Positions 11,770 to 33,752 of a stretch of 64,000 nt of DNA are shown piece by piece (the first letter of the stretch is position 1; every line of letters begins with the position of its first letter). The position numbers and the translations under genes were made by a program. A model generated the notes under the pieces. It was not told the DNA's origin. It saw only the letters and a list, made by a program, of their open reading frames with translations, and ran no database searches. The stretch is from the NCBI RefSeq assembly GCF_003664995.1, contig NZ_JFHL01000029.1, forward strand, positions 124,001-188,000, in the 5' to 3' direction. The DNA is from Mesotoga sp. BH458_6_3_2_1. Lineage in GTDB: Bacteria; Thermotogota; Thermotogae; Petrotogales; Kosmotogaceae.

Positions 11770-14700
11770 CTAATCATGTGTCCCCCCAAGAGAAATATCA
11801 AGTATGTACGGTTCTACTTTGAAAGCATCATCCGAAATGCTGATCGCCTGTTCTTTATACTTCTCCAAAGCTTGTTCCTTATTCTTATTCTTCCGTAATG
11901 CATCAGAACGTCTATAATCTTCCTTGTCCCAGTTCTCGAAATTGAACCAACTCACCAAATATATCCCTCTGTAAACGGAATTCTTTTTCATGTACTCATC
12001 CAGCAGTTGCCGTTCCATGGCTTCATCGATTTGTTGATTCCAGTTCCCCTTCACCTCGATCACAAGCTCGATCTTGCAGCTCATTCTTGAAGTGATCTCT
12101 TCTACAGCTGTAAGATAAATATCCGCGAATTGCCTCGTGTCGTCCCGCCTTATCTGAACCTCTCGGTTAATCACTATGCTCCTCTCACTAAGATACGACC
12201 GAAGAAACCGGGTGACATAATCTGAAACCCTATCCTCATCTTTTGGCCCGTACTTTGTTGCACTATCTACTTTGCATTCATTCCACAGATCAATTGCGCA
12301 GGGTAAAGATACGCTAACTAAAGCTTTGTTTAGCTCATCAAGCGCTTCGAGGACAACGGCAAGAAACTCATCGCTGTTTCTAACGATTCGTCTTTTCTGG
12401 TTCTCGATCAGAGCAGTCAACGTATCGATTTTCGCTGGAATCCAGTTATTCTTCAAAGCCAGATCATATGCGCTGGAGTATCGCCATTTGAGAGTCGGAT
12501 ATTCTTTCGAAAGCCTTTCTAGAGTTTCGACCGCTTCAAAAGAAGCGAGTTCCTCCAAGCACTTTTCGATATCATATTTCAGCTGAAGCAGATGATTATG
12601 TGTTGTGTACACACCATCATCGAAGTCAGAATTCAGTAACTTTGGAAAGCTCTTAAGGAGAGATTTGTACAAATATTCCAGTTGATGACATTCGATCTGA
12701 TTGAGTATCCTATATCTGTCATTGTCTCTAGCAATGGTGATTAAGAACTCTTTTTGCTGCTGGTTTGTCTCAACAATCTCCCACACTCTGTCCCATTCTT
12801 TGCCCTCAGAGTGTTCCAAAAGTAATAGGCATAGATCCGGTAAGGGTATTGGCAATTCATCCATCCCCGCGTTGCTAATTTGATCGTAGATGAACTCTAT
12901 CGCCCTATTCTTGTCCTCATTCAGAAGAAACTCTATGGCATTTCTCCTAAATCGATCTGAAAGGTCCATGTTCTTTGAGGCTTCAAATAGCAGCCCGGAG
13001 ATCCCCTCGATGTTGAGTTCGCTGAATCTTGAAAGATCAAACCATTGATCTTCAGAAGTCTGCTCCAGGATCATTCGTTCAAGAATCTTCAACGATTCTT
13101 CGGTAAACAAGTCCATGACTATCTTTACAAGATTCTTCAGCAAAAATCGCGAATTCTCTCCAACAGCCGGGAAACTCAGTATGACATCAATGTGTTTCTT
13201 CAGAATATTCGAGTTCTCTGTCAACCAATTACTGTCAAGCATCTCCAGATTTAGAAGCGAAAACATAACAGCGAAGTCATCTACAGTGAATTCTGATGCT
13301 CTTGAGCCCTTTCTAGAAACACAGGATGAACCCAAAACGAACTCCTTAATGGTCCTAATGAAGTCGTCTCTTTCCTCTTCGGAAAGGTCACTCAGTATTT
13401 GTCGCTCCCAGAGATCCCATAAGGTATTTGAGCCATTTCTTCGAACCAGCAGATCAATAAGAGTTCGGATTTCTTGGCTTGCGTTTTCGCGAATTATCTT
13501 CTTCGCTTGTTGAGTGAGCGAGGGTTCTTCTGGTCCGTGGCTAATGCACATCGGTTTGTCTGAATTGTGTTCACGTATTTGCGTTAACCGCTTACGTAGA
13601 GTTTGAGAGACTTGTGGTCTTTCATCAATCTCCGGTAATTTCAGAAGCTCGTTGTAGACGCTTTCCTCATCCAGAACGAACCGTAGAATAGTCCTTATGA
13701 GAAGACCGTCTTCTTCCTCAGCCATGGCGATGTTCTTGAACACGTCTAGAAGCATCTCATGATTCCGATGGAGCTTTGTCCGAAAAGCATTAAACGCTTC
13801 CTCATTGATGAGTGAGCTTTTGCTTCCGTAGAGGAGGACGATCAGGGAAGCAATTTTCGCTGCCATTTTCTCATAATAGATGCTTTCTTCAGTGACTCTC
13901 GAGAGCAGCTTTGGCAAAAGGTAGTTGGGGTAATAATCATCGGAGAAGTGCTTAACATACCAGTCTAACGCTTCTATTGATAAACTTCTGTCTATCTTCT
14001 CAAACAGAACTGTTTCGATAAACGCGTCGTAAGCCCCAATAAGCCGCTTGTCTTTCTTAGGTGTGATGCTCGAAAGAAGCTCGCTTACTGAAATGTGTTT
14101 TGGCCAAAGAGCGTACATACAGAGCCCCTTGATCTCATCATCTTTGTCGGTTGGAATGTCCTCCAGAACAAAGGGAAGAAGTTTTGTTTTCTGATCCATA
14201 TTTTGGGAGTATATGAAAAAGGAAGCGGCGTACTTTCTAACGCTGATGTGCTCCTTTTCGTCCAACAAAACGTTCATTATCTCGTCTTCAATAGCAAAAG
14301 TCCTGCATGACTCAGCGATTCTCAAAGCGAGAACTCTCGAAGGGATGTTCTTCTCTTTGTTGTTGATGTAATCGAGTAAGTCATTTTCTATGCCCGCGTA
14401 CCTCAAGTTGCCTGAGAGATCGGTTATCCTCTCAATATAGATTTCTTTGTCATACAGTTCAAGAAGCTTAGTTACCAAAATCCTTTTCTTGCGATCCTCA
14501 ATAACTGATAAATCGCTGCTAAGCAGAGTAAGTGGAGATATTTCCAGGAGGTAGTCGAAGATTTCGTCACGTTCTGTCGCGATCCAAGCGATAGTCTCCT
14601 TGAGTCGAGGAACTAGATCTTTCGGTCTGCAGTTGTGCGTTATGAGAGAACGCAACTGCATTTCACTGAGCTTCCTGCTGACTATGAAAGAAGCAGCCAA

Positions 14701-15750
14701 GAATTCGGCGTAAGAGCTGTGTGACCAAATCGTTCCTTCATGCGACACTGAGAAAAGAGCGGTCTTCAAGACTTCTTTGATCTGGGCTTCCGTGGCATTG
14801 AAAACATCTCCTCTCTTGGTCTCACAAGTTCCAGCTAACTGAGATACACTGACCATGTTGTTTCTCAACGCAATTTCGCTCTCATCGACAATGATTCCGC
14901 GTCCTGAAAACTCAGTGAAGAAAGCGATTCTACTAGCGATGGCCATTCTTCTCTCAGCGCTCGCTCCTTCTTCAGGAATTTCGCATAGCTTTCTGCAGCT
15001 CGCTTCGAACAGCCCCATCCTTCCTTTCTGGAAGGCCTCCATGTTGCTTCTTCTGTACTGTTCAACTAGCATTACCAAAGTCAGAGGTCTGATCAGGAAA
15101 GACCAGAGATCGTTAGCTTTTGCAACCTGAAGAAATCCTTTCTCATCCACATCACACTCGTTGATCAGGTTATGAACATCTTCGAGACTCAGTACTGTCA
15201 ATTCATAGATCCTTATTTCCTTGTCATGAGTACCATCTAGCTTTTCATACGGCTCAGAAAGACTACTGCCGAGAATATCGGACCAATCCCCAGTTCTACA
15301 TGCCAGGATGAAAGACACCTTTCGGGAAAGCTTCACGGTGTTAATGATGCAATCTCGAATAACTTTAACGCTCTGAACAATCCCGCAAGAGTATTCATCC
15401 AAAGAGTCTACAAAAACAGTCACATTCCTATCTAAATCATGTCCGGAATCCCTCAGCTCGCTTGCTAGATTCTCCAGTGAGAGTTGATTGTCTATCCATA
15501 TCACTTTCTCTCCAGAGGATTCCAGTTTTCTTCTGTAGCGCTTCATCTCAGTTGTTTTTCCCATACCGGGCTCGCCAAGCAGGATCAAACACGAATACTG
15601 ATCAAGATCTTCCATCGCTTTCAAATGGGCGTTCCATAAGCTTCCAGAGAACCCTTTGGGATTAGCTAGAAAACCTGTGCTCTCAGTGTAATATGGTTTG
15701 TCTTTCTCCACCCAGAAACGAGTCCAGCCAACAATACTCAACCATGACAC
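11770..15750 (-). CDS. Giant NACHT-type STAND ATPase with C-terminal PD-(D/E)XK-like domain
   Basis: 1326 residues, far larger than its neighbours. A NACHT-like P-loop ATPase lies near the N-terminus: Walker A GEPGMGKT (~59-66) and Walker B VTVFVDSLDEY (~110-120), then a sensor-like ILACRTGDW. A long alpha-helical, leucine-rich middle (~400-1100) has the look of HEAT/TPR-type repeats. The last ~150 residues hold E-x-D-x-ExK spaced acids (REVQIRRDD, FADIYLTA, LVIEVKGNW), the pattern of a PD-(D/E)XK nuclease. STAND proteins of this plan act as phage sensors (Avs and bNACHT proteins), but usually with the effector at the N-terminus. Start is GTG 15750 or TTG 15741; the latter sits 6 bases after AAGAAGGTG. 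It stands alone beside an IS remnant and an S24 pseudogene. Function as a single-gene defence is inference. Confidence 0.75.
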   Translation of the reverse strand: MSWLSIVGWTRFWVEKDKPYYTESTGFLANPKGFSGSLWNAHLKAMEDLDQYSCLILLGEPGMGKTTEMKRYRRKLESSGEKVIWIDNQLSLENLASELRDSGHDLDRNVTVFVDSLDEYSCGIVQSVKVIRDCIINTVKLSRKVSFILACRTGDWSDILGSSLSEPYEKLDGTHDKEIRIYELTVLSLEDVHNLINECDVDEKGFLQVAKANDLWSFLIRPLTLVMLVEQYRRSNMEAFQKGRMGLFEASCRKLCEIPEEGASAERRMAIASRIAFFTEFSGRGIIVDESEIALRNNMVSVSQLAGTCETKRGDVFNATEAQIKEVLKTALFSVSHEGTIWSHSSYAEFLAASFIVSRKLSEMQLRSLITHNCRPKDLVPRLKETIAWIATERDEIFDYLLEISPLTLLSSDLSVIEDRKKRILVTKLLELYDKEIYIERITDLSGNLRYAGIENDLLDYINNKEKNIPSRVLALRIAESCRTFAIEDEIMNVLLDEKEHISVRKYAASFFIYSQNMDQKTKLLPFVLEDIPTDKDDEIKGLCMYALWPKHISVSELLSSITPKKDKRLIGAYDAFIETVLFEKIDRSLSIEALDWYVKHFSDDYYPNYLLPKLLSRVTEESIYYEKMAAKIASLIVLLYGSKSSLINEEAFNAFRTKLHRNHEMLLDVFKNIAMAEEEDGLLIRTILRFVLDEESVYNELLKLPEIDERPQVSQTLRKRLTQIREHNSDKPMCISHGPEEPSLTQQAKKIIRENASQEIRTLIDLLVRRNGSNTLWDLWERQILSDLSEEERDDFIRTIKEFVLGSSCVSRKGSRASEFTVDDFAVMFSLLNLEMLDSNWLTENSNILKKHIDVILSFPAVGENSRFLLKNLVKIVMDLFTEESLKILERMILEQTSEDQWFDLSRFSELNIEGISGLLFEASKNMDLSDRFRRNAIEFLLNEDKNRAIEFIYDQISNAGMDELPIPLPDLCLLLLEHSEGKEWDRVWEIVETNQQQKEFLITIARDNDRYRILNQIECHQLEYLYKSLLKSFPKLLNSDFDDGVYTTHNHLLQLKYDIEKCLEELASFEAVETLERLSKEYPTLKWRYSSAYDLALKNNWIPAKIDTLTALIENQKRRIVRNSDEFLAVVLEALDELNKALVSVSLPCAIDLWNECKVDSATKYGPKDEDRVSDYVTRFLRSYLSERSIVINREVQIRRDDTRQFADIYLTAVEEITSRMSCKIELVIEVKGNWNQQIDEAMERQLLDEYMKKNSVYRGIYLVSWFNFENWDKEDYRRSDALRKNKNKEQALEKYKEQAISISDDAFKVEPYILDISLGGTHD

Positions 15751-19350: not shown

Positions 19351-20898
19351 ATGGCAAAAGAAACCAACGGAGCGAATCTCGGCTTTGAGAACCAGATGTG
19401 GGCCGCTGCCGACAAGTTGAGGGGGCATATGGATGCCTCCGAGTACAAGCATGTGGTTCTTGGATTGATTTTTCTCAAATACATCTCGGACGCCTTCCAG
19501 GCCAAGTACAAGCAGCTGGAGGCTACCAAGGATACTGAATATTCAGATCCTGAAGATCGTGACGAATACGCGGCTGCCAACATTTTCTGGGTGCCGAAGG
19601 AGGCCCGCTGGTCCAAACTCCAATCCAGCGCCAAGCAACCGACCATCGGCAAAATCATTGATGACGCTATGGTGGCCATTGAGAAAGAGAATCCTACCCT
19701 CAAGGGTGTTCTGCCCAAAGACTATTCGCGTCCGACTCTGGACAAATACCTGTTGGGTGAGCTCATCGATATCGTCAGCAAGATCGGACTTGGAGACGAT
19801 GAATCCCGCTCAAAAGATATTCTCGGCCGGGTGTACGAGTATTTCCTCGGTCGTTTCGCCGCGGCGGAAGGCAAAGGCGGCGGTGAATTTTACACACCCC
19901 GGTGCGTGGTCAATCTGCTCGTCAGAATGATCGAGCCATATAAGGGTCGCGTGTTTGACCCGTGCTGCGGCTCGGGTGGCATGTTCGTTCAAAGCGAGGG
20001 CTTTGTTGAGGAGCGTGGCGGCCGCCTGGGTGATATCGCTATCTACGGTCAGGAGTCCAATCCTACAACCTGGCGGCTGGCGATGATGAACCTGGCCATC
20101 AGAGGACTGGACGCCAACCTTGGCGGTCAACATGCGGACAGCTTTCATAATGACCTGCACAAGGACCTGCGAGCTGATTTCATCCTCGCCAATCCGCCCT
20201 TCAACATGAGCGACTGGGGCGGCGAACGCCTACGGGAAGACGCCCGCTGGAAGTACGGCATTCCGCCGGTGAACAACGCCAACTACGCTTGGATTCAGCA
20301 CTTCATCCATCACCTCTCACCCACTGGTATTGCCGGTTTCGTTATGGCCAATGGCTCCATGTCCACCAGCACCACCAGTGAAGGGGAAATCCGCAAGAAT
20401 ATAATTGAGAAGGACCTGGTGGATTGCATGATCGCCCTGCCCGGGCAGCTTTTCTATACGACTCAGATTCCGGTGTGCCTCTGGTTTCTCGCTCGAAACA
20501 AGAAGAACGGCAAATTTCGAGACCGGCGCGGACAAACGCTCTTTATCGACGCCCGCAAATTGGGAAACCTTATCGATCGAACCCACAAAGATTTTTCCGA
20601 AGAAGAGATCGACAAGGTTGCCGGGACTTACCATGCCTGGCGTGGAGAAGAAGAGGTTGGCGAATACAAGGATGTGCCGGGTTTCTGCATGAGCGTTACC
20701 ACCGAAGAGATCAGAAACCACGGCTATATCCTGACCCCTGGCCGCTACGTAGGCATGGAAGAGATCGAAGGCGATGGCATTCCATTCGAAGAAAAAATGG
20801 CCGAACTGTCAGCAACGCTCTACGAGCAGTTCGCTGAGGCTCACCAGCTCGAAGCCGCTATCAAAAAGAACCTGGAGAGCTTGGGCTATGGCCAATAA
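19351..20898 (+). CDS. hsdM: Type I restriction-modification DNA methyltransferase subunit
   Basis: 515 residues from ATG 19351 (ribosome site GGAGGT; an upstream in-frame ATG at 19330 precedes that site and is unlikely). The N-terminal helical domain reads [19 protein letters not shown]...FLKYISDAF. The methylase core has [13 protein letters not shown]-type motif ([15 protein letters not shown]), SAM-binding [11 protein letters not shown] and the catalytic NPPF ([12 protein letters not shown]), so it is an N6-adenine methylase. It forms the M2S enzyme with HsdS and the restriction complex with HsdR. Base composition is visibly GC-richer than genes on either side of the island. The last 76 bases have a diverged second copy at 22015-22090 (see findings). 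Confidence 0.95.
20815..20890 (+). repeat. hsdM 3' end, first copy of a diverged direct repeat
   Basis: Runs from ACGCTCTACGAGCAG to TTGGGCTATG. It aligns without gaps to 22015-22090, about 60 of 76 bases identical by hand count; both encode TLYEQF.EA..LEA.IK.NLE.LGY. Confidence 0.85.
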
Positions 20899-22003
20899 CC
20901 AGGAAGGCTTCAACTTCAGCACCCTGGTCACTGCTATTCACCAGGTAGACGAAAACATGGCTGCGCAGGCCGGGCGGGCGGTCAATGTCAGCCTGACCCT
21001 TCGAAACTGGATGATCGGCGCCTATATTGTCAAATATGAACTGAACGGTTCGGACCGGGCGGATTACGGTGATAAGCTCCTTTCAGAACTGGCAAAGCGG
21101 CTGACAGGCATCAATGTGAGTAATTGCAATCGCCGCCAGCTCTATCGTTACCTACGTTTTTACCGGCTTTATCCTCAAATTGTGGGGACACTGTCCGCAC
21201 AATTGAAGACTATGCTGCCTGCGGATTTACATGGAATTGAAAAAGTGGGGACACCGTCCCCACAATTGAAAATCCCACCGGAAAAACTCGTATATCGGCT
21301 TTCATACAGCCATCTGGAATTGATCGTGGATCTTGACGATCCTCTCAAACGGACCTTTTACGAGATCGAGTGCATCCGGGGAAACTGGTCGGTGCGGGAG
21401 CTCAAACGGCAGATCGGCAGCCTCTACTATGAGCGTTCCGAGTTATCGGAAAACAAAGAAAAACTGGCAGAACTGGTCCAATCAGGGACGGAAAAGAGCG
21501 AACCGAAACTGGCTGTCCGCGATCCCTATGTTTTCGAGTTTCTCGGGATAAAGTCCTGTGAGGCCATGAGGGAGTCCGATCTGGAGGATCAGCTCCTGAA
21601 CGAACTACAGGATTTCCTTTTGGAGCTTGGCCACGGATTCTGCTTCGAAACCCGCCAGAAGCGGATCCTGATCGGTGATACACACGGTTTCGTTGACCTG
21701 GTTTTCTACCACCGCATCCTTAAATGCCATGTGCTGGTGGAGTTGAAGGTCGAGTCCATTAACCACGAAAACCTCGGACAGTTCAACACCTATGTGAGCT
21801 GGTACCGGAAAAACATGATGGCCGACGGAGACAAGCCGCCCGTGGGCATTCTGCTCTGCACGCAAAAAGACCATGCCCTGGTGGAATACGCCTTGGCAGG
21901 TATGGACAACCACCTGTTCGTCTCCAAGTACCAGCTCGAACTGCCCCGCAAGGAAGAAATACAGAAATTTCTGGAAGAGAAGATACGGGAGGTCGGGGAG
22001 TGA
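20888..22003 (+). CDS. DUF1016/YhcG-family PD-(D/E)XK nuclease
   Basis: 371 residues from ATG 20888, overlapping the hsdM stop by 11 bases. The N-terminal DUF1016_N domain reads [30 protein letters not shown]...LLSELAKRL, then [16 protein letters not shown]. The C-terminal YhcG nuclease part reads [12 protein letters not shown]...[25 protein letters not shown]...[22 protein letters not shown], with the D...ELK catalytic pattern. YhcG proteins often sit in or near type I restriction operons; their exact role is poorly known. The middle (~100-125) is a linker coded by two palindromic units. It is probably a later insertion between hsdM and hsdS, as shown by the duplicated hsdM end that follows it. 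Confidence 0.88.
21182..21263 (+). repeat. Two REP-like palindromes inside the yhcG-type gene
   Basis: GTGGGGACACTGTCCGCAC at 21182-21200 and GTGGGGACACCGTCCCCAC at 21245-21263, each followed by AATTGAA, 63 bases (21 codons) apart and in the same frame. The second is a perfect 8-pair hairpin with an ACC loop. They encode VGTLSAQL and VGTPSPQL. Confidence 0.8.
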
Positions 22004-22098: not shown

Positions 22099-23449
22099 TT
22101 GGGTAAATCACCGAGTTGATGATATTGCTAATGTAACAGACTACGTGGCAAATGGCAGTTTTGCCACTCTAAAAAAGAATGTTTCTTATTCATCTACCCC
22201 TGATTTTGCGATATTGGTCCGGCTTGTTGATTTCAATAACGGTTGGAATGGAAATTATGTATATCTCCCTGAGAATTCTTACCGCTTCTTGAAGAAGAGC
22301 TCTTTAGATGTTGGTGATGTTATCATTTCGAATGTTGGCGCGAATGCGGGTACAGTTTTCCGTGTACCCGACCTTGGAAAACCAGCAACCTTGGGCCCAA
22401 ATTCGATTGTCATTAAAACCGAAGGGAAGGAATCACTCCGCGACTTTCTATACTATTATTTCGCCGGTCCAATTGGCCAAAATCAAATTCAAAGTATAAT
22501 TACTGGAAGTGCTCAACCCAAGTTCAACAAAACTGATTTTAGAGCTATTACTATCAAAATACCTAGCAATGAGCATGAACAACGTGCCATAGTCCACATC
22601 CTCGGATCGCTGGATGACAAGATCGAATTGAATCGCCGGATGAACCAGACGCTGGAGGCCACTGCCCGGGCAGTCTTCAAGTCCTGGTTCGTGGATTTTG
22701 ACCCGGTGCGCGCCAAAGCCGAAGGCCGCCCGACAGGTCTGCCGGATGAAATTGCCGCGCTCTTTCCCGACAGTTTCGAAAACTCGGAGATTGGTGAGAT
22801 CCCAAAGGGGTGGGAGGTTAGTACCATAGGTGAAAATGCTGAAAAGTTGTCTAAAGGAACAACACCCCGCATGAATGACGTTCTTAATGCACAGGACACA
22901 CCATCTATTCCATTTCTAAAAGTAAGAAATATATCTGAAGAAGGGGAGATTGACTTATCAAACTTAGATAGAATCCCACGATCAATACACGAAGGTTTTT
23001 TGAAAAGATCGATATTGAAAACTAATGATGTTCTTTTTTCAATTGCTGGTACCATTGGAAGAGTATCCATATTGCCTGAGGAATTGAATGATTCAAACGT
23101 AAATCAAGCGATTGCTTTTGTTAGGCCAAAAAAGAATGAGCTACCATCGACCTTTCTCAGATTGATATTGATTTCAGATAGAATCCAAGATGAAGCCAGT
23201 TCGCGGGTTGTCCAGGGTGTCCAAGCTAATGTCAGTCTGACAGTGCTGTCCGATCTTAGATTTGCGAACCCTCCACAGTCAATTATTGATATTTGGCTAA
23301 GATATTTTGGCGATAGTTTCAGTCGTCAGGAATTGCTGTTAAGAGAATCACGTTCCCTTTCCTCTCTTCGCGACACCCTCCTTCCCAAACTCATTTCTGG
23401 TGAGTTGCGGGTCCCGAATGCCGAGGCAATAGCCGAAGGAGTGAACTAA
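22088..23449 (+). CDS. hsdS: Type I restriction-modification specificity subunit
   Basis: 453 residues with two target recognition domains. TRD1 is ~1-165; the central conserved helix is ~170-240 (HEQRAIVHILGSLDDKIELNRRMNQTLEATARAVFKSWF, then DFDPVRAKAEGRPTGLP). TRD2 is ~245-410 (GWEVSTIGENAEKLSKGTTPR...); the distal helix LLLRESRSLSSLRDTLLPKLISGEL follows. It determines the bipartite DNA target of the methylase and nuclease. Both TRDs are AT-rich while the conserved helices are GC-rich, which points to domain exchange. ATG 22088 overlaps the orphan hsdM end; the stop (TAA 23447-23449) overlaps the next ATG by one base. Confidence 0.93.
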   Translation: MSGDWVNHRVDDIANVTDYVANGSFATLKKNVSYSSTPDFAILVRLVDFNNGWNGNYVYLPENSYRFLKKSSLDVGDVIISNVGANAGTVFRVPDLGKPATLGPNSIVIKTEGKESLRDFLYYYFAGPIGQNQIQSIITGSAQPKFNKTDFRAITIKIPSNEHEQRAIVHILGSLDDKIELNRRMNQTLEATARAVFKSWFVDFDPVRAKAEGRPTGLPDEIAALFPDSFENSEIGEIPKGWEVSTIGENAEKLSKGTTPRMNDVLNAQDTPSIPFLKVRNISEEGEIDLSNLDRIPRSIHEGFLKRSILKTNDVLFSIAGTIGRVSILPEELNDSNVNQAIAFVRPKKNELPSTFLRLILISDRIQDEASSRVVQGVQANVSLTVLSDLRFANPPQSIIDIWLRYFGDSFSRQELLLRESRSLSSLRDTLLPKLISGELRVPNAEAIAEGVN

Positions 23450-25659
23450 TGAATAGTGCAGCACCTGATCGAATTACGATTCGCACGTTTTCCAGTATCT
23501 TCGAGAAAATGTGCAACTTTATTGCGATTGCGAAGACAGGCGATCCGCATGCGACAATCCGTGGTCTGGTGACTCTTTGTCTATTCGAATTTCCGGATGA
23601 ACAATTCTACGTGTCGGGTCAGTTTCACAAAACCATCGAGACGCTGTTTGGCCTTGTCATACCCCAAGACCAGATCGAGTCGGCGCTTGATGAGCTGGAA
23701 AAGCAGAATGTCATTATTCGGCCAGGCAACACAAACTATCGACTTGACCCAGCGGCGATGGAGGAGCTGAAGCAGTCTATTGAGGAAGCCCAATCTCTTG
23801 AGGAACGGGTCAGAGTGGATTGGTTCCAGCAGTTGGGGGACAGCTATCCTAACTTACCAGTCGAGGATGCGTGGGAAGTACTACGTGCCTACCTTCAGAA
23901 GACTTTTCGACGCCACGGTATTCAGGCGGCAGCCTTACTTGACCCGACGGTGAACACTCCACCAGAGCACGAAGCCAGCCTGACGGCTATCCTGCACAAG
24001 GCTATCGACGAGCACGGTTTCCTCGATAAGAATTTACGGGCAAGAGTGGAAGCTGCGGTTTCCGGGTTTATGGCGGCACTTGGACGTGATACTGACCGTA
24101 TCAAGTATATCGCTCAACTTGCGGATGCGGCGTTCAACTTCTACACGCTCGAAGTGCCCGCCGATCTGTCGGAGCATCTGCGCAAGGAGCTTCGCGAACT
24201 GACGCTATTTCTTGATACAAACTTCCTGTTCGGCATTCTGGACCTGCATTACAATACACAGGTTCAGGTATCCCACGACCTGATGCGAGCGATCAGCGAA
24301 CATAAGCTCCCCTTCAAGCTGCGGTTTCACGAAGAGACCCAGAAGGAGATATCAAACACCATCTCTCACTACGGGAGCATCCTACGTTCTCGGCCGTGGA
24401 CGAACTCTCTAAGCCGCGCCGCATCGACCTCCCGGAACTTGTCCGGGATTGAGCAGAAGTTTCATGAACGTAACGCTGCTGGCCCGATAGATGTTGACGA
24501 GTTTCTCCGTCCGTTTGAGCACGTCGATAGCCTCCTGGCCACGAAGGACATTAAGATATACCGGCCACATTCCGAACGGCCTAACGATCAGAACGATCTG
24601 TTTCATGAGTATCGGGAGTTCCTGGATAAAAACGGACGTGGCGACAAGCCATATGAAACGGTGATGCACGACGTGAAGGTGCTGGAGGAGACACGAAATC
24701 TTAGAACGAACGCTGCATCGAGTCTGGAAGCTGGGGCTCTGCTGATCTCTTGTGACTACTACCTGTATCGCTTTGACTGGGAAGCATCCCGCAAAGTCGG
24801 ACGGCGCGCTTGCGTTCTGTTGCCGAACATATTTTGGCAGATATTGCGGCCATTTGTGCCAACAGACCAGGACTTCGAGAAGGCATTTGCAGAGACATTT
24901 GCCCTGCCTGAGTTCCGGGTGATCGGAAGCGGTGGGAGCCGCGCATGCTCGAAGATGCTGCAGATTCTCGCTACATACAAAGAAGTACCCGAGCAAACCG
25001 CAATGAAGATGCTCGCTAACGACCTACTCCTGGACCGGCTGCGCTCCGAGCACGACGACGCCAAATTCAAGGAGCAGGTCGAACAGGCGTTTGTTGAGGA
25101 AAATAGAAACCTCCTTGAAGAAAAGATGTCACTTGAACAGGAACTCCAACGACAGAAAGTGCGTGCGGAGGAAGAGGCCCGGAAGCGACAAGAGGATAAG
25201 GCAGCATACGAGGCAAACACCAATGAGCTGAACAAAGGGATTGAAGAAGCAGGGCAGCAATTGGAAGCCGCCAGCCGAGCGCTTAAGGAACACGACCAAG
25301 CGAAGATTGGTGCCGAAGAATTGGCTAAAGCAGCCGGGAAATCCGCTGCGGAAGCCCAGAGGAAAGCCGAAGAGGAATCGGACCATAAGAGAAAGGCTGA
25401 GCGTAAGGCCTTCTGTATGAGTGTTTTCGCAGGCATAGCGTTTGGTGGAATCGCTGTCATTATATTCCTTGCGCTGACTCACATGTTGCCGTGGCCATGG
25501 CTGGTGTCGCACAAGAACACGATCCCTCTTCAGATCGCGTTTTGGGCGGCGTTCATGTGCGCATCTCTGGGACTGTTTGTGGGTGCTTGGCGCAAGTGGT
25601 GTTGGGGCGGCGGTTTGGTGGCATTCGTTATTTCCCTGCTTTCATTGATGGGGACCTGA
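23449..25659 (+). CDS. PIN-like nuclease domain / coiled-coil / membrane protein inside the hsd operon
   Basis: 736 residues. Parts in order: a winged-helix-like region (~15-105, HATIRGLVTLCLFEFPDEQF...ALDELEKQNVIIR); a PIN-like domain (~250-450) opening with ELTLFLDTNFLFGILDL, with further acids in RFHEETQKEIS and VKVLEETRNLR and closing on ALLISCDYYLYRF; a long Glu/Lys/Ala coiled coil (~530-650); and three hydrophobic helices (~655-733) ending LVAFVISLLSLMGT. It is translationally coupled to hsdS (TAATG) and ends 3 bases before hsdR. PIN domains are usually Mg-dependent RNases. In the E. coli prr locus the anticodon nuclease gene prrC holds the same place between hsdS and hsdR. A membrane-anchored suicide RNase watched by the restriction enzyme is a reasonable but untested reading. 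Confidence 0.75.
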   Translation: MNSAAPDRITIRTFSSIFEKMCNFIAIAKTGDPHATIRGLVTLCLFEFPDEQFYVSGQFHKTIETLFGLVIPQDQIESALDELEKQNVIIRPGNTNYRLDPAAMEELKQSIEEAQSLEERVRVDWFQQLGDSYPNLPVEDAWEVLRAYLQKTFRRHGIQAAALLDPTVNTPPEHEASLTAILHKAIDEHGFLDKNLRARVEAAVSGFMAALGRDTDRIKYIAQLADAAFNFYTLEVPADLSEHLRKELRELTLFLDTNFLFGILDLHYNTQVQVSHDLMRAISEHKLPFKLRFHEETQKEISNTISHYGSILRSRPWTNSLSRAASTSRNLSGIEQKFHERNAAGPIDVDEFLRPFEHVDSLLATKDIKIYRPHSERPNDQNDLFHEYREFLDKNGRGDKPYETVMHDVKVLEETRNLRTNAASSLEAGALLISCDYYLYRFDWEASRKVGRRACVLLPNIFWQILRPFVPTDQDFEKAFAETFALPEFRVIGSGGSRACSKMLQILATYKEVPEQTAMKMLANDLLLDRLRSEHDDAKFKEQVEQAFVEENRNLLEEKMSLEQELQRQKVRAEEEARKRQEDKAAYEANTNELNKGIEEAGQQLEAASRALKEHDQAKIGAEELAKAAGKSAAEAQRKAEEESDHKRKAERKAFCMSVFAGIAFGGIAVIIFLALTHMLPWPWLVSHKNTIPLQIAFWAAFMCASLGLFVGAWRKWCWGGGLVAFVISLLSLMGT

Positions 25660-25662
25660 CCG

Positions 25663-28600
25663 GTGCGCAAATACCTCGACGAAGCCCAGGTTGAAATCCT
25701 GACCATAAACTACCTCCGAGATATCGGATATGATTATGTCTTTGGTCCTGATATCAGCCCCGACGGCCCGGCCTGTGAACGTAATGATTACGATCAGGTC
25801 ATCTTGGTCGGAAGGCTGCAGACCGCCCTTGAGAATATCAATCCAAACATCCCACCGGATGCCATTGAGGAGGCCGTCCGGAAAATCGCAAGGACCGACT
25901 CGCCAAGCTTGATCGAAAACAACAGACGTTTTCACCGTATGCTGACTGACGGCGTGGATGTCTCCTATATGAAGGATGGTAGAGAGGTCCACGACAAGGT
26001 ATGGCTGCTCGATCTTGAAGACTTGGAGAATAACGACTGGCTCGCCGTCAATCAGTTCACTGTCATTGAAGATCGGAGATGCCGCCGGCCCGACATCGTG
26101 GTTTTTGTCAATGGCCTGCCCCTGTGCGTGATCGAGCTCAAGAATCCTGCGGATGAGAAGGCTACCATCCGCCATGCATTCAACCAGCTTCAGACCTACA
26201 AGAACGACATACCCGCCCTCTTCATCTATAACGAGTTGCTTGTCATTTCAGACGGTCTGGAGGCCCGCGGTGGGACGCTCACAAGCGGCTGGGACCGTTT
26301 CATGCCATGGCGCACAATTGACGGCAAAGAAGTCGCCCCGCGAGGCTCTGTGGAACTTGAAGTGCTACTCAAGGGGGTTTTTGAAAAGCGGCGATTTCTC
26401 GACCTTGTATTGAATTTTGTCGTGTTCGACGATGATGGAGTCGTGGTTGCCAAAAAAGCGGCGGCCTATCATCAATTCTATGCGGTTAACAAAGCGGTTG
26501 AATGTACCCTGTCGGCATGCGGTATTGATGCAGACCCCGGTATGCTGTATGCCCGTTTCCCGGGGCTTGACGAGCACAACCCTTTTGAAGTGCGGGAGCC
26601 GCAGGCCGCTTATGGCACTGGCACCGATCACTTCGGTGGTCACCGTATCGGAGTGATCTGGCATACCCAGGGAAGCGGTAAGAGCCTTTTGATGGCGTTT
26701 TTCGCCGGTAAGATCATCCGTCATCCGGCCATGGAAAACCCAACATTGCTGATGATAACCGACCGGAACGACCTGGACGATCAGCTCTTTGGCACGTTTT
26801 CATCCTGCCGTGACCTTCTTCGTCAAACACCCATTCAGGCAGAAAGCCGGGAACATTTGAAGGAGCTGCTTCAAGTTGCTTCGGGTGGGGTGATTTTCAC
26901 GACGATTCAGAAATTCCTGCCTGACGAGAAGGGCCAGCAATACCCCGAACTATCCTCTCGCAGAAATATCGTGGTCATTGCCGACGAAGCGCACCGCAGT
27001 CAGTATGACTTCATCGACGGATTTGCTCGTCACATGCACGACGCTCTGCCAAATGCGTCCTTTATTGGATTTACAGGTACGCCCATCGAACGTGACGACA
27101 GAAGCACGCCGGCCGTCTTCGGCGACTACATCGATAAATACGACATCCTGCGGGCGGTCGAGGATGGCGCCACCGTTCCCATATTTTACGAAGGTAGGCT
27201 GGCAAAGATCGACTTGCGGGAAGAGGAAAAACCGACAATCGATCCGGAGTTTGAAGAGATCACCGAGGGGGAGGAAGAGACCTACAAGCAGAAGCTGCGC
27301 ACCAAGTGGGCCGCTCTTGAAGCTATGGTCGGCACGGAAAAGCGAATCTCGATTGTGGCGGAGGACCTCGTTCACCATTTTGATGATCGCTTGCTGGCAT
27401 TAGACGGCAAGGCGATGGTCGTTTGCATGAGTCGTCGAATCTGTGTGGATATGTACAACGCCATCGTGAAGCTGCGGCCGGATTGGCATAGCGAGGATGA
27501 CGACAAGGGCGTGCTGAAGATTGTCATGTCCGGTTCCGCATCGGATCGTGCCGAGTGGCAGCCCCATATTCGCAGTAAGCCGCGACGTGAGGCCCTGGCC
27601 AAGAGGTTCAAAGACCCGAGCGATCCGATGAAGGTGGTGATCGTGCGGGATATGTGGTTGACGGGGTTTGATTGCCCGTCGCTTCATACGATGTACGTAG
27701 ACAAGCCGATGCGGGGGCACGGCCTGATGCAGGCGATAGCCCGTGTTAACCGCGTGTTCAAAGATAAGCCGGGCGGATTGGTCGTTGACTACCTCGGCCT
27801 TGTGGACCAGCTGAAAAGAGCCCTTGCGGACTACACCGAAGCGGGGGGCCGCGGGAAGGCAGCCATGAACCATGAAGTAGCCGTTGCGGTAATGTTGGAG
27901 AAGTTCGATATTGTCGTCTCCATGTTCCACGGTTTCAATTACACTTCTCTTCTCAGAGCAGAACCGGCAAAGCGTATCGGCGGCATTGCGGCTGCCATGG
28001 AACACATTCTTCAGTTGGAGGATGGCAAGAATCGCTATCTGGCAGAGGTGACTGCTCTGTCCAAGGCTTTTGCTCTTGCTGTTCCGCATGAGGAAGCTAT
28101 TAAGATTCGTGATGAAGTGGGATTTTTCCAAGAGGTCCGAGCTGGGCTGGCTAAAGCAACGGTTGAAGGCGAAGGCAAGAGTCCCGAAGAGATGGATACC
28201 GCGATTCGCCAGCTGGTATCGCGCGCCGTAGCCTCAGAAGAGGTCATCGACATTTTCGCTACGGCGGGATTAAAGAAACCGGATATCTCGATTCTCTCAG
28301 ACGACTTCCTCCAAGAAGTGCGGCAGCTTCCTCACCGGAACCTTGCGGTGGAATTGCTGAGAAAACTCTTGAACGATGAGATCAAGACAAGCTCCCGCAA
28401 AAACGTAGTACAGGCACGATCTTTTGCAGAGATGCTTGAAAAGGCCATACGAAAATACCAGAACCGGGCGATTGAAACCGCGCAGGTCATCGAGGAACTG
28501 ATCAAATTGGCCAAGGAAATGCGCGAGGCTCAGCAGCGTGGCGAAAACCTTGGCATGAACGATGACGAAATCGCCTTCTACGATGCGCTTGAGGTTAACG

Positions 28601-28845
28601 ACAGTGCGGTGAAGGTTTTGGGTGATAAAATGCTGAAGACGATTGCGCACGAACTGGTTGAAGCGGTTAGGCGGAGCGTGAGCATAGACTGGACTGTTCG
28701 TGAAAATGCCCGTGCCCAGATACGGGTGATTGTGAAACGGATTCTGCGCAAATACGGTTATCCGCCCGACAAACAGGAAAAAGCAACTCAAACCGTTCTG
28801 GAGCAGGCGGAGGTCGTTTGCCGAGAGTGGGCTGAAAAGGTATAG
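25663..28845 (+). CDS. hsdR: Type I restriction endonuclease subunit R
   Basis: 1060 residues, full length. The N-terminal nuclease domain has the PD-(D/E)XK acids in [22 protein letters not shown]. The motor has Walker [10 protein letters not shown], the DEAH box in [12 protein letters not shown], motif III FTGTPIE and later helicase motifs ([32 protein letters not shown]). The C-terminal helical domain binds the methylase core. The complex translocates and cleaves unmodified DNA. Start GTG 25663, three bases after the previous stop and without a strong ribosome site of its own, so it depends on coupling. Same GC-rich composition as hsdM. Confidence 0.96.
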
Positions 28846-29387
28846 GAGCACCTAACAAATCGATGCACTTGACAGCTATTTCACTGGAATTTTTGCGACA
28901 AGTGAGCTTTAGTGATATGCACATAGAAGAAAGTCTTTTGTGGCAGACGCGATTTTCAACAGTTAGCAATATAAAGTCTACACATTACCTATTACCTGGT
29001 TCATTAGGAGCATCTCTGGAATGTTCTTGCCTGAGAAATGAAGTGAAATTTTGAAGTCACGGGATTTATTGCTAAAGTAGCTTGTTGCATCTAGAAGATG
29101 GTTGAAGAATGTTATTAGTTTAGCAGAATTGGATAGTATCAGTCACTATTAATTGGTTGTTGCGTCCTAGAGTGTCACAAACCGGGCAACATATGTGAAT
29201 GGTTTCATCATTGTTTAAGAAATACCGGAGCTGGGACTCCGGACCTCAAGAACGAGTTTCGTGCAAACAAAGCTGTTCTACAAGTGTACTGGATATCCTT
29301 CTCCAAATCACTCCCTTTCCACACACTTCTCAAAGACTCAAATTAATCTAACCTGCATGAAACTACTGAATAGGGAGTGGTTAGTAA
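28846..29387. other. Gene-free stretch between the hsd operon and the AT-rich accessory block
   Basis: About 540 bases. It starts with an attC-like segment (separate entry) and then becomes AT-rich, marking the right edge of the imported GC-rich DNA. A small hairpin, CCGGAG-CTGGGA-CTCCGG, lies at 29225-29242. No gene recognised. Confidence 0.5.
28850..28914 (+). other. Possible integron attC-like site after hsdR
   Basis: ACCTAAC (28850-28856) fits the RYYYAAC core and is followed by AAATCG.TGCACTTG, the common opening of chromosomal attC sites. CACTTG (28866-28871) pairs with CAAGTG (28899-28904), and AGCTTTAG follows where GTTAGG-like bases are expected. The right core is not intact, so at best it is a decayed site. 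It begins five bases after the hsdR stop. Confidence 0.35.
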
Positions 29388-30179
29388 GTGTACATCAAGC
29401 CCCGAGAACCCGAAGAAAATGAGAGCATAGCATGTCATTATCAGTCTTTCATACCTGGCTCTCTAGTCTGCAGAGCAGCAAGACCGAAAGGAAAAGACAG
29501 TACAAATGAAGTGAGCCCATCAATTTGTGCTGAATGCCCCGTTGGAAAAATATTCAGAGAAATAGGTTGTGACTCTGTTTCCCCTAGAATACGTATACTT
29601 GACTTCGGTGAAGATTCTTTCGCAGAAGTCGACGCTCTCTTTTGTTTAAAGAGAAACAGAGATACCACAATCGAGTACTGCAGGGAATGCACTCTAGTCA
29701 TTGCCGAAACTACTCGCCAGATAGTAAATACCTCTCGATCTTTGTTTGAGAGGTATGAGTTCTATTCCGCCTTCAAGTTCCTTGAGAAGGCAAGAAAGGA
29801 AATTCGTGACGGAGATTTGGAAGGTGTTATTACTTCGAGTATAGCCATCTTCGAATCGGTAATGAAGTCCTGTCATGAAAAGAAAGGCGTTCCTCTTCCA
29901 GATTCCAAACAAGTCACTGGTCTGTGGAAGTCGACACGAAAAATCCTTGATCTCGATGAATCTGGTGGACAAGGTAAGATACTAGATCTGCTGAATGCGC
30001 TTTACGGTGTGGTGTCAGGACTAGGGAGATTGAGAAACGAACTTGGTGATGCTCATGGAAAGGGAGAATCTCTGCCGGTCGTCACAGAGATGATGGCCGA
30101 ACTCTCACTGAACACGGCAGCAACACTTGCTACAGCTGTGATCCGCAGATATGCAGAACTGAAGGAGGATAAAGAATGA
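29388..30179 (+). CDS. Abortive-infection C-terminal (Abi_C-like) protein with cysteine-rich N-terminus
   Basis: 263 residues. The N-terminal ~105 residues carry many cysteines in pairs (CAECPVGK, YCREC and others), suggesting zinc binding. The C-terminal part fits the Abi_C family seen in abortive-infection proteins: a helical stretch, then GVVSGLGRLRNELGDAHGKGE with the conserved LRN...HGKG core and a final helix NTAATLATAVIRRY. Start GTG 29388 with AGGGAG ten bases upstream. The stop overlaps the next ATG (ATGA), so this is the first gene of a coupled trio. The family is linked to phage exclusion, but its chemistry is unknown; the role here is inference from family and neighbours. Confidence 0.65.
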   Translation: MYIKPREPEENESIACHYQSFIPGSLVCRAARPKGKDSTNEVSPSICAECPVGKIFREIGCDSVSPRIRILDFGEDSFAEVDALFCLKRNRDTTIEYCRECTLVIAETTRQIVNTSRSLFERYEFYSAFKFLEKARKEIRDGDLEGVITSSIAIFESVMKSCHEKKGVPLPDSKQVTGLWKSTRKILDLDESGGQGKILDLLNALYGVVSGLGRLRNELGDAHGKGESLPVVTEMMAELSLNTAATLATAVIRRYAELKEDKE

Positions 30180-30733
30180 ACACAATTCAAGTCTTTCTTC
30201 CGCTTGACACAGATCGTTTTCTCAGACGTGAATGTCCTTACTGCAAAAGGGAGTTCAAAATCGAAGTGCCAGATGAATTGCTGAGGCAAGAAGGCGAAAA
30301 GTTTACTGCAGAATACATGGTTGAAGCTGAAGAACAAACTCAAATAATTGAAACAAATGAAAAGGAAATACATTGCCCTTATTGTGGACAGGTAGCCCCA
30401 GCAAATTATTGGTTCACTGTTGAGCAACTGAACTACATACAGGCGCTTGCAATGAACTGGTGCATAGAGAATCTGAACAGAGAAGTCTTCGAAAAAATGA
30501 AAAAGTACCTCAGCAGCAAGAATCAGGGGAAAGCAATTAGATCCAGTCAACAAAGACTGAAGACAGCCAACGCTTGGATCAATCGCGAAAGTAATGATAT
30601 GAGACTCATACAGCTACCTTGCTGCCATATTAGGCTCAAAATCAAGGAAAACTGGAAAGAGAAGATACATTGTATTGAATGTGGTTTTCCTCACGAGAAT
30701 TCGAGAATAGTCGATTATCAGGAGGGACAGTAG
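30176..30733 (+). CDS. Multi-zinc-knuckle protein of unknown function
   Basis: 185 residues. It has CPYC near residue 20, CPYC near 67, then CC near 145 and CIEC near 162, so up to two zinc ribbons, one at each end of a helical middle (TVEQLNYIQALAMNWCIENLN, in pieces). I do not recognise a named family. ATG 30176 overlaps the upstream stop by four bases and its TAG stop overlaps the next GTG start by one base, so the product is made in step with the Abi_C-like and cyclase-like proteins. It could be a nucleic-acid-binding or scaffold partner. Confidence 0.6.
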   Translation: MNTIQVFLPLDTDRFLRRECPYCKREFKIEVPDELLRQEGEKFTAEYMVEAEEQTQIIETNEKEIHCPYCGQVAPANYWFTVEQLNYIQALAMNWCIENLNREVFEKMKKYLSSKNQGKAIRSSQQRLKTANAWINRESNDMRLIQLPCCHIRLKIKENWKEKIHCIECGFPHENSRIVDYQEGQ

Positions 30734-31623
30734 TGAGCAGGTTCAAAGTGAAGCGAAATCAAGGAGGCTCTTCAAGAGTAATTTCCAGCAAATCAACCAA
30801 AGAAGTATCTTCCGGGAGAAAGGTCACAGGTTTCTTCGGTCTCTTCGATATACTCGGCTATCGTTCATTGATAGAGAATAACTCTCTGGAAGAGCTCATA
30901 AAGATCTATAATTCTGTTGTCTCTGGCATTGATAAAGCAGCAGTAACAATCAATCACACAGATGAAGATCAGTCGCTTTCTTTCGACACAGTCGGTAGTT
31001 TCATGTTTTCCGACACGATAGTTCTCTTCCAAGAGTATTCCACGATAAACTTACCAGGAGGCACTTTCATCTTGAAGGCCGCTTTACTCATGAGGTTGGC
31101 ATTTGAGAAAGGAATTCCCTTGCGTGGAGCGATTAGTTACGGAGAATACTACATAGACGAGAACTGCTATCTAGGCAAGCCGATTGTCGAGGCTTACGAG
31201 ACGGAGAAGATGCAAGAGTGGTCAGGAGCAGTTCTATGCAATTCGGCTGAGCAAGAATATGCTTTGGATCTTGATAGAAGAAGCAGCGCGAAGACCATGA
31301 ACTTTCATGGAATTGAGATAAACCCTGCTGTAATGATGTCCCAATTCATGGAGAATCTGATTGTTCAGTATGATGTACCGACTAAGAGTGGCATTGAAAT
31401 TAGATCAGCGCTTTGTTGGGATGATTATGTCTCAATTTTCTGCAAAGTCGATGTCCCTTTTTTGGAGCCGCATATCTTCGAAGAAAGAGTGCGCGAAAAC
31501 TTTTCAAGACACAACAAGAAAATTGACAACGATTCAGTGAGACAGAAGATGGAAAATACCGTGGGGTTTCTGAGGTTTTTGGAGACTCGCCCAATTAGCA
31601 CGCGAATTGCAAATAAGGGATAA
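30733..31623 (+). CDS. Class III nucleotide-cyclase-like protein
   Basis: 296 residues from GTG 30733, overlapping the previous stop by one base. After a basic, disordered-looking N-terminus, GLFDILGYRSLIENNSLEEL resembles the first metal-Asp region of class III adenylate/guanylate cyclases (Asp39). VGSFMFSDTIVLFQ supplies the second Asp (Asp94) 55 residues later. IPLRGAISYGEYYI and GKPIVEAYETEKMQEWSGAVL follow, as in cyclase-fold proteins of defence islands (Pycsar PycC-type). The C-terminal ~100 residues are unassigned. Substrate choice (ATP, GTP, UTP or CTP) cannot be read. Coupled to an Abi_C-like and a zinc protein, it may make a signal nucleotide upon infection; this is inference. Confidence 0.55.
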   Translation: MSRFKVKRNQGGSSRVISSKSTKEVSSGRKVTGFFGLFDILGYRSLIENNSLEELIKIYNSVVSGIDKAAVTINHTDEDQSLSFDTVGSFMFSDTIVLFQEYSTINLPGGTFILKAALLMRLAFEKGIPLRGAISYGEYYIDENCYLGKPIVEAYETEKMQEWSGAVLCNSAEQEYALDLDRRSSAKTMNFHGIEINPAVMMSQFMENLIVQYDVPTKSGIEIRSALCWDDYVSIFCKVDVPFLEPHIFEERVRENFSRHNKKIDNDSVRQKMENTVGFLRFLETRPISTRIANKG

Positions 31624-31698
31624 TATTCATCTTCGTAACTGTTTGTACTGTGCTGTCATGAGTATTGAGTGATGAATTATCGAACGGAGGTATTTTCT

Positions 31699-32175
31699 TT
31701 GACCGAAATTTACGATCGCATCTATGTTGGTTCTGAAGTGGATTGCTTCCATTCCAGACCGGGATGGGCTGTGGTCCATGCGTGCAAGCATCCATGTCAC
31801 GTCAATGCAGTCGGCTACAAAGGTTCGCTACCGAAGGACCACCCCAATTACCTGAGTTTTGAGAGAGGAGCTAATCTCTATCCGAACATTGTTGATCCAG
31901 ATATTCCTCTTTTCATGCCACAGACCTTTGTTGATTTCATGATCTTTGCCCAGAAGCATTATGGCGAAGGGAAGAATCTACTGATTCACTGTAATCTCGG
32001 TGAATCAAGAGCTCCCTCTCTAGCACTGCTTTTCATGGCTAAGGGTCTGCACGTGATCTCCGATAGAAGTTATGAAGAAGCACGAAAGGAATTTCAGCTG
32101 ATCTATCCCGAATACATGCCCGGCTTGGGTATCTCCAGGTATTTTACCGAGAACTGGAACGAACTTGGTGAGTAG
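31699..32175 (+). CDS. Tyrosine/dual-specificity-phosphatase-like protein
   Basis: About 158 residues. The P-loop LLIHCNLGESRAPSLALL gives the C-x5-R signature (HCNLGESR) of cysteine phosphatases, and MPQTFVDFMIFAQKHYGEGK before it fits the dual-specificity fold. The general acid Asp is probably in NIVDPDIPLFM. The frame opens at GTG 31669, but the ribosome site GGAGGT (31686-31691) points to TTG 31699. Phage and plasmid islands carry similar small phosphatases; whether it acts on protein or on a small molecule is unknown. It lies 75 bases after the cyclase-like gene, possibly in the same transcript. Confidence 0.7.
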   Translation: MTEIYDRIYVGSEVDCFHSRPGWAVVHACKHPCHVNAVGYKGSLPKDHPNYLSFERGANLYPNIVDPDIPLFMPQTFVDFMIFAQKHYGEGKNLLIHCNLGESRAPSLALLFMAKGLHVISDRSYEEARKEFQLIYPEYMPGLGISRYFTENWNELGE

Positions 32176-32284: not shown

Positions 32285-33367
32285 TTGAAAGTAATTCTTG
32301 ATAGTACTGTCTTCTGTGCCGATTTCCGAATGTCTGGCAGCAGCTTTTTCACATTGTTCGAAGCAGTCAGAGCAGCGCTCATAGAGCTGAAAGTTCCTGA
32401 TGTTGTCATTGATGAGGTTGTGAACCGTTTTAGAGAAGACTTAGAAGAAACGCTTCAGAAGAAGCGCAAGTTGGACAGTAAGTTGGATTCTCTCTTGAAG
32501 AAAGAAACTAGTAATTCTTCTCCCGATATCTGTGTGGAAAAGGAAGTAATCGATTATCGCAATTTCCTTCATTCTCAATTGAAGAAGCTCAATGCGGAGG
32601 TTTTGCCCTACCCGGAAACTCCGCACAAACTGATCGTGGAACGATGCCTTAGAAGGCGTGCACCTTTTAAGAAAGATGGGAAGGGCTATCGTGACTCTCT
32701 TATTTGGGAGAGCATAGTTCAACTTTCAAAATCAACTGAGGAGCCGGTAGTTTTCGTTACGAGCAACACTACAGATTTCGGCTCAGGGCCATATGTTACG
32801 GATGATCTTCAGAAAGACTTGACCAGTCCGAAGGGCGTTGAACTCCTTATTGGCTTGAGGGCCTTCAACGAGAAGTACTTAGAGCCGAAGTTTGCGATGA
32901 TCCGTGAATTCCAAGACAGAATAATGAGAAATGGTGTTGTGATTATACCGAGCCCAGAATGGATAAGGAAAAACTTCCTTGACACGCTTGAATCGGAGGA
33001 CATTAAGGCAGTCGTATTCAATCTTCCATCGGGTGCAGGTTCGTTATATATTGGAGGTGCCGCGCTGAAGAATCCACCTCAGATTGAGAGCATAAGAGCG
33101 CTTTCTGAAGAAGAAGTGCTTGTGAGGGTTCTCATGAAAGTTGATGTGGACTACAGTATCGACTTTGATTGGGATGACTACGCTGAATATGAGGACGTGC
33201 GAGAATTGCTTGGAAGCTGCGACGAAAGCTTTTTGTTTACGTCGTTGTCGGGCAAAGAGACGATTACTGTTGAATTTGATCTAATAATACACAGGATAAC
33301 AAAGGAAATCATCACTTATGAGCTTTCTCTTATTGAAGGACCCTCTGCTTCACTGTTTCTACGCTAA
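32285..33367 (+). CDS. PIN-domain protein (DUF4935-like)
   Basis: 360 residues. The N-terminus MKVILDSTVFCADFRM has the first PIN aspartate. A charged helical insertion spans ~60-110, then KKDGKGYRDSLIWESIVQL (second acid cluster, the GYRDSLIW motif of the DUF4935 group) and VVFVTSNTTDF (third acid) complete a PIN-like active site by ~residue 165. The C-terminal ~190 residues are beta-rich and unassigned. PIN proteins of this group are predicted RNases found in toxin-like and defence settings. Start is TTG 32285 with a GAGGGGTGAT site before it. It is a single gene closing the accessory block. Confidence 0.75.
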   Translation: MKVILDSTVFCADFRMSGSSFFTLFEAVRAALIELKVPDVVIDEVVNRFREDLEETLQKKRKLDSKLDSLLKKETSNSSPDICVEKEVIDYRNFLHSQLKKLNAEVLPYPETPHKLIVERCLRRRAPFKKDGKGYRDSLIWESIVQLSKSTEEPVVFVTSNTTDFGSGPYVTDDLQKDLTSPKGVELLIGLRAFNEKYLEPKFAMIREFQDRIMRNGVVIIPSPEWIRKNFLDTLESEDIKAVVFNLPSGAGSLYIGGAALKNPPQIESIRALSEEEVLVRVLMKVDVDYSIDFDWDDYAEYEDVRELLGSCDESFLFTSLSGKETITVEFDLIIHRITKEIITYELSLIEGPSASLFLR

Positions 33368-33397
33368 TCATTAGGAATTGAAACTGGGCTTCAAGAC

Positions 33398-33449
33398 TGG
33401 CAGCCCCATGGGGGACCGAACCCCGACCTTCGGACTGAGAATCCGGTGG
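33398..33449 (-). pseudogene. 3' fragment of a tRNA-Glu (CUC) gene
   Basis: Read on the minus strand: anticodon arm CCGGA-TTCTCAG-TCCGA (anticodon CTC, with T33 and A37 in place), variable AGGTC, T-arm CGGGG-TTCGGTC-CCCCA (four G-C pairs), the acceptor 3' strand TGGGGCT, G and an encoded CCA ending at 33398. The matching acceptor 5' strand (AGCCCCA) and a D-arm are not found upstream, so only the 3' part is preserved. Such 3' ends are typical integrase attachment duplicates, but simple decay of a tRNA copy is also possible. Confidence 0.6.
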
Positions 33450-33752
33450 ATCAACTCGATTGGATTGTTATAGTTCTTTCGACGACAGATAAACCTTCTT
33501 GCGGCGAACTATCTTCAGATGAAAGGAATATCCCGCTCAGGGTTCCAGCGTACATAATGAGTATTATCAGCGTTGAAGCTATTCACTCGTCAGAACAAGC
33601 TGCAGCTCGACAGTCCATCAAACTAGCTAGATCCCGTTCATTACTTCCATTCTCCGAATTCCGAAGAACTTCATTGCTAAAGAGTCGCCAGTGTGAATAA
33701 TCCGACCAGGCGGAGGATCATCGGGTTTCTTCGATCTGGTTGAGATTTGGTA

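Follow-up and report, generated by a model that had tools for sequence, protein, structure and literature searches.

An AbiJ-type HEPN protein, a PDC-M14A zinc-ribbon protein and a cyclase-fold protein encoded in a candidate abortive-infection cassette of Mesotoga

Layout of the locus and its exchange with CBASS

Three genes on the + strand of a Mesotoga genome, P1, P2 and P3, are joined by overlapping stop and start codons, which raises the question of whether their products act together and, if they do, whether the system works through a nucleotide signal. The genes lie in a stretch of 64,000 nucleotides (here called the window; G000:C29:124001-188000) of the 3.2 Mb genome of Mesotoga sp. 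BH458_6_3_2_1. A preliminary description, made from the DNA letters, had proposed that a cyclase-like product makes a signal read by one of the other two proteins. The gene overlaps on which it was built, ATGA at 30176 and TAGTG at 30731, were confirmed by the ORF calls and the sequence, and every residue that it quoted for the three products was found. The coordinates are shown in Table 1.

Table 1. Position of the cassette genes, their junctions and the compared features
Feature	Position	Strand	Remarks
P1-P2-P3 cassette	29388-31623	+	ORF calls, sequence
P1	29388-30179	+	GTG start
P1/P2 junction	30163-30179	+	Shine-Dalgarno AGGAGG 30163-30168; ATGA stop/start overlap 30176-30179
P2	30176-30733	+	ORF calls, sequence
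P2/P3 junction	30720-30735	+	Shine-Dalgarno AGGAGG 30720-30725; TAGTG stop/start overlap 30731-30735
P3	30733-31623	+	ORF calls, sequence
P1 N-terminal Cys-rich region	residues C16, C28, C48, C51, C61, C86, C98, C101		Eight Cys in the N-terminal 110 residues
HsdR, type I restriction-modification	25663-28845	+	Pfam/PADLOC; upstream of the cassette, context only
Left slot arm, mostly non-coding	29194-29382	.	84% identity to the left arm of the G004 CBASS cassette
Right slot arm, outside the cassette	31714-32168	+	93% identity in G004
Dual-specificity-phosphatase-like gene containing the right arm	31669-32175	+	
G004 CBASS and 333-aa gene	L176 (G004:C28:38000-54000), 6446-9893	reverse complement	
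L142, PDC-M14A then M14B-N/C-terminal TIR protein	L142, 3605-5095	-	

That the trio forms a single defence cassette is argued most strongly by its exchange with a CBASS operon. In a sister species of the same genus (G004), the two arms that flank the trio in the window enclose a CBASS operon in place of P1-P2-P3, with genes for a 2TM/NUDIX effector (E 2.7e-63), a CD-NTase (E 4.6e-110) and an E2 protein (E 7.9e-46), and a fourth gene for a 333-aa protein with the Rx5H motif RDDYSAH. The exchanged segment comprises exactly P1, P2 and P3 and no other whole gene. This swap is documented by one complete genome pair, the window and G004, and by partial contigs: contig C305 of G007 (L177) carries the CBASS cassette, including the 333-aa gene, next to the phosphatase-like gene, and on a contig of G002 HsdR is followed by PDC-S45 and ApeA/PDC-S58. 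With a CBASS operon between the matching flanks of the sister species, the trio behaves as a single defence cassette and is probably an unrecognised variant of bacterial immunity.

The trio resembles type II short CBASS (CD-NTase, E2 and effector) in its genomic slot but has no CD-NTase, E2 or CBASS effector. Membership in CBASS was rejected, as Pfam and PADLOC searches found no CD-NTase in the trio; the G004 slot does contain one. The 333-aa protein of that slot had no PADLOC match; its HEPN-like motif makes it a possible additional CBASS-associated effector.

The HEPN protein P1 and the zinc-ribbon protein P2

The Abi_C core that had been read by eye in P1 was borne out by profile searches. 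Residues 179-249 matched Pfam Abi_C above the cut-off (E 1.7e-10), and residues 130-249 matched the AbiJ model of PADLOC (E 2.5e-16). P1 carries LRNELGDAHGKG, and its RNELGDAH is an R-x6-H that fits the HEPN pattern R-x4-6-H; by Pfam, PADLOC and motif, P1 has an AbiJ-type HEPN domain. With AbiJ-NTD1 to 5 as the criterion, the Pfam and PADLOC matches span the C-terminal half of P1 only. The N-terminal 120 aa, which include the Cys-rich region, gave no plasmid match at E<=1, and an AlphaFold2 model of P1 from its single sequence (pLDDT 43) was too poor for use.

AbiJ, a Lactococcus Abi protein, belongs to the HEPN superfamily, and members of the AbiJ type are counted among the predicted HEPN RNases of abortive-infection systems (PMC3710099). 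P1 is like AbiJ in its C-terminal AbiJ/Abi_C-type Rx6H HEPN domain and in lying near a restriction-modification operon, as described for AbiJ (PMC3710099). It differs in the unrecognised Cys-rich N-terminal region and in the two partner genes coupled to it. On these sequence features, we propose P1 as an RNase effector, likely an RNA-cutting suicide enzyme.

P2 is a zinc-ribbon protein of the PADLOC candidate defence family PDC-M14A (E 1.2e-20). It has four Cys pairs (C20/C23, C67/C70, C149/C150, C166/C169), and C20, C23, C67, C70, C166 and C169 are invariant in eight aligned sequences that include plasmid relatives. The preliminary description had counted up to four cysteine knuckles; the four pairs are present, but they probably make about two zinc sites.

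The P2 family was surveyed at 35 loci from plasmids and from genomes sampled across several bacterial and archaeal phyla. An effector partner or fusion could be identified at 24 loci, and 11 had no clear partner. Nine relatives carry a fused domain at the C-terminus in which RHxxxHxxG is invariant, and at one further locus (L151) a domain of this RHxxxH type is encoded by a separate gene beside the P2 relative. This domain is HEPN-like by motif and helix pattern; Pfam was silent on both fusions scanned (n=2), and a profile comparison of the fused C-termini with P1 for HEPN homology was null. Five relatives lie directly downstream of a CAP12/PycTIR-type TIR gene (PF10137), four of these assigned by Pfam and the fifth by similarity to those four. 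PDC-M14B follows the P2 relative at five loci, and at three a PDC-S05 protein directly precedes it; PADLOC assigns PDC-S05 alone, and "PLD-like" is our reading of its HxxxD-type motif. At the remaining locus, L142, the P2 relative is followed by a protein that combines an M14B-like N-terminus with a TIR domain. The L142 arrangement suggests that the M14B N-terminus is a docking part and the C-terminus a swappable effector.

Since the effectors of P2 relatives vary (HEPN-like, TIR, PLD-like, PDC-M14B), P2 and P1 look like a sensor/adaptor-effector pair. P1 lies directly upstream of P2, the position held by the TIR and PLD-like partners elsewhere. P2 thus looks like the constant component and the effector like the one that is exchanged, with P1 apparently filling the effector position in the window and P3 looking like an extra enzyme beside the pair. 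An Abi_C partner detectable with P1 occurred at none of the 35 P2 loci besides the window.

The candidate system PDC-M14 (PDC-M14A and PDC-M14B) is among the closest known systems: P2 is a PDC-M14A protein by HMM, and an effector gene adjoins it, as at L010, L127-L129 and L152. The window departs from it in having no PDC-M14B, in the upstream Abi_C/AbiJ HEPN effector and in the added cyclase-fold gene; PADLOC found no PDC-M14B match among P1, P3 and the genes at 31669 and 32285. We found no description of PDC-M14 or of zinc-ribbon/TIR/HEPN modules in the literature searched, where coverage of subscription papers and preprints was thin.

HEPN proteins also act in toxin-antitoxin pairs, and this role would fit an operon that serves regulation, of a stress or toxin-antitoxin-like kind, instead of defence and whose place in the slot is fortuitous. 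We consider such an operon highly improbable here, given the PDC-M14A and AbiJ assignments, the swapping of effectors, the occurrence of CBASS and ApeA in the slot and the neighbouring type I restriction-modification genes.

The cyclase-fold protein P3 and its place in the trio

P3 matched no family of Pfam, NCBIfam or PADLOC; its sole match was phrog_23933 (E 4.6e-8). Its AlphaFold2 model (pLDDT 85.4, pTM 0.84) has the class III cyclase fold that the preliminary description had supposed: the 50 PDB matches listed by Foldseek comprise class III adenylate or guanylate cyclases without exception, the best being 3uvj (E 2.3e-6), and the target-normalised TM score to 1azs is 0.60. The two Asp regions and the GAISYGE/GKPI block reported earlier are present, with D39 and D94 55 residues apart. 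Relatives of P3 were found by genome scan at 80 loci across many phyla, and in an alignment of 76 sequences of the family (A4) D39 is kept in 75 of the 75 ungapped rows and D94 in all 76. On this conservation, the P3 motifs stand well above chance.

When the P3 family was aligned by profile with bona fide class III cyclases from three genomes (E 2e-5), D39 and D94 coincided with the two metal-binding Asp of these enzymes. The columns of the transition-state Asn/Arg pair (N-x3-R) are V152 and E156 in P3; across the 76 sequences the first is I or V and the second is variable. P3 therefore has the fold of class III adenylate/guanylate cyclases (PF00211) and their metal Asp in register, but differs from them in the lack of a Pfam match, in this V and E and in a helical C-terminal extension. 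The replacement of the Asn/Arg pair makes canonical cyclisation chemistry doubtful, although the fold and the metal site are right.

The comparison with Pycsar (PycC cyclase with PycTM/PycTIR), on which the earlier proposal leaned, stood in part. P3 is a class III cyclase-fold protein with two conserved Asp beside a potential effector. However, it matched no PycC model of PADLOC at E<=1, no member of the 76-sequence family (0/76) did so at E<=0.01, and the transition-state pair is lost. The trio also has no TM or TIR effector and no cNMP-binding domain: Pfam and PADLOC, applied to P1, to P2 and to the next two genes downstream, found no PycTM/PycTIR effector with a cyclic-nucleotide-binding domain, in line with the earlier remark that no TIR or membrane effector typical of Pycsar is present. 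Membership in Pycsar was rejected on the lack of a PycC match and of a PycTM/PycTIR-type effector. The signal receptor that had been placed in P1 or P2 did not find support either, as Pfam and PADLOC detected no cyclic-nucleotide receptor domain in these proteins.

The three genes had been presented as a set, and the co-occurrence search ran against this. No P2 relative was found beside a P3 relative at the 80 P3 loci (0/80), nor a P3 relative beside a P2 relative at the 35 P2 loci (0/35), and only one of 18 P3-bearing genomes had P2 elsewhere. Within the sampled phylum P1, P2 and P3 occur together only in the window, and the exact trio is present in one genome among those sampled; the samples were a few hundred genomes per phylum and the search used pattern scans, by which distant relatives can be missed. 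P3-family loci are mostly solo with heterogeneous neighbours, and an all-against-all neighbour comparison with a Pfam tally over the 80 loci revealed no conserved partner. At two of them (L047, L078) a gene for Ymh, a HEPN family (PMC3710099), lies immediately upstream of the P3 relative, and one of the two Ymh proteins has a Cys-rich N-terminus like that of P1.

This distribution would suit a two-gene defence module of P1 and P2 beside which P3, an independent solo gene, has landed with an incidental overlap. Members of the P3 family occur widely and mostly alone, have no recurrent partner and never lie beside P2 relatives at the loci examined, and the island is pieced together from various defence genes. 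The TAGTG overlap with its good Shine-Dalgarno sequence and the limits of the cassette, which include P3 exactly, speak against an independent P3, and we regard it as unlikely.

Nucleotide signalling would also account for P3: on infection, a cyclic or linear product of P3 would be bound by P2 or by the Cys-rich N-terminus of P1 and turn on the P1 RNase, much as in Pycsar or CBASS, though the cyclase-fold enzyme would be another one and the read-out would be of zinc/HEPN type. The class III fold, in which the two metal Asp are strictly conserved, is consistent with this, as are the place of P3 in the same exchange cassette, its translational coupling, the CBASS operon in the same slot of the sister species and the Ymh genes at L047 and L078. 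It is opposed by the absence of the transition-state Asn/Arg from P3 and the variation of these positions in its family, by the lack of a detectable known nucleotide-receptor domain in P1 and P2, by the P2 relatives that have effectors without P3 and by the orphan state of P3 at most of the 80 loci. The closest analogues of P2 act with an effector and without a cyclase, so that the reading of a P3 signal by P1 or P2 is at best possible; we hold signalling of this kind to be rather unlikely.

Two further observations concern the distribution of these families. At L057 (2213-3780) a P3 relative overlaps a gene whose product, on visual inspection, looks like a nucleoside-deoxyribosyltransferase/TIR-like effector. 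Nine viral or prophage contigs (L180-L188) encode P3-family cyclase-fold proteins according to the scan with the P3 alignment; viral contigs gave no hits when scanned with P1, P2 or P3 as single proteins or with the P2 alignment, and phage records contained no P2 relatives. Sequence searches of the PDB yielded nothing of use.

Proposed function and the surrounding defence island

The likeliest reading of the trio is a PDC-M14A-type abortive-infection module whose effector is a HEPN RNase. With slightly better than even confidence, we read it as a horizontally exchanged anti-phage cassette in which P2 is the sensor/adaptor, P1 the effector and P3 an added enzyme. P2 would sense infection or hold P1, whose RNase would be kept inactive until infection; once released, P1 would cut RNA and stop both the cell and the phage. 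P3 may bind a nucleotide through its two metal-holding Asp, and could make a signal, consume one or sense NTPs. The defence function, the RNase activity, the gating of P1 by P2 and any enzymatic role of P3 are what we infer from the computed features described above.

The cassette links PDC-M14A zinc proteins, AbiJ-type HEPN effectors and a cyclase-fold family, which are unlinked in the databases and literature searched. PDC-M14A proteins swap effectors in the manner of a general sensor/adaptor. The P3 family lies outside the Pfam, NCBIfam and PycC models where tested, combining strict metal Asp with absent cyclisation residues; if P3 is active, it would bring new nucleotide chemistry to the class III fold. 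We think it decidedly unlikely that P3 represents a large unrecognised family that keeps the two metal Asp but has lost the cyclisation residues, and that in this cassette it makes a non-canonical nucleotide signal relayed by the PDC-M14A adaptor to the HEPN RNase. If this were true, nucleotide-signalled abortive infection would have a third architecture in addition to those of CBASS and Pycsar. As the trio shares its slot with CBASS of the sister species, it makes a compact, testable three-gene cassette.

Upstream of the cassette lie HsdM, a DUF1016/YhcG nuclease (PDC-S02), HsdS and HsdR, with a STAND NTPase on the opposite strand. The nuclease gene (20774-22003) is embedded between HsdM and HsdS, and a 736-aa protein encoded between HsdS and HsdR (23449-25659) had no Pfam or PADLOC match. 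The STAND NTPase (nSTAND_NTPase5/nSTAND3; 1326 aa; 11770-15750, - strand), likewise with no PADLOC match, is a possible Avs-like defence protein. Downstream of the phosphatase-like gene, a PIN_12 nuclease-domain protein is encoded at 32285-33367 (E 5e-30). ARAGORN reported no tRNA within the window; a 53-bp tRNA-Glu fragment (33397-33450, - strand) is 94% identical to a portion of the tRNA-Glu(CTC) genes of sister genomes, and is probably the attachment-site scar of an integrated element, marking where the defence island ends on the right.
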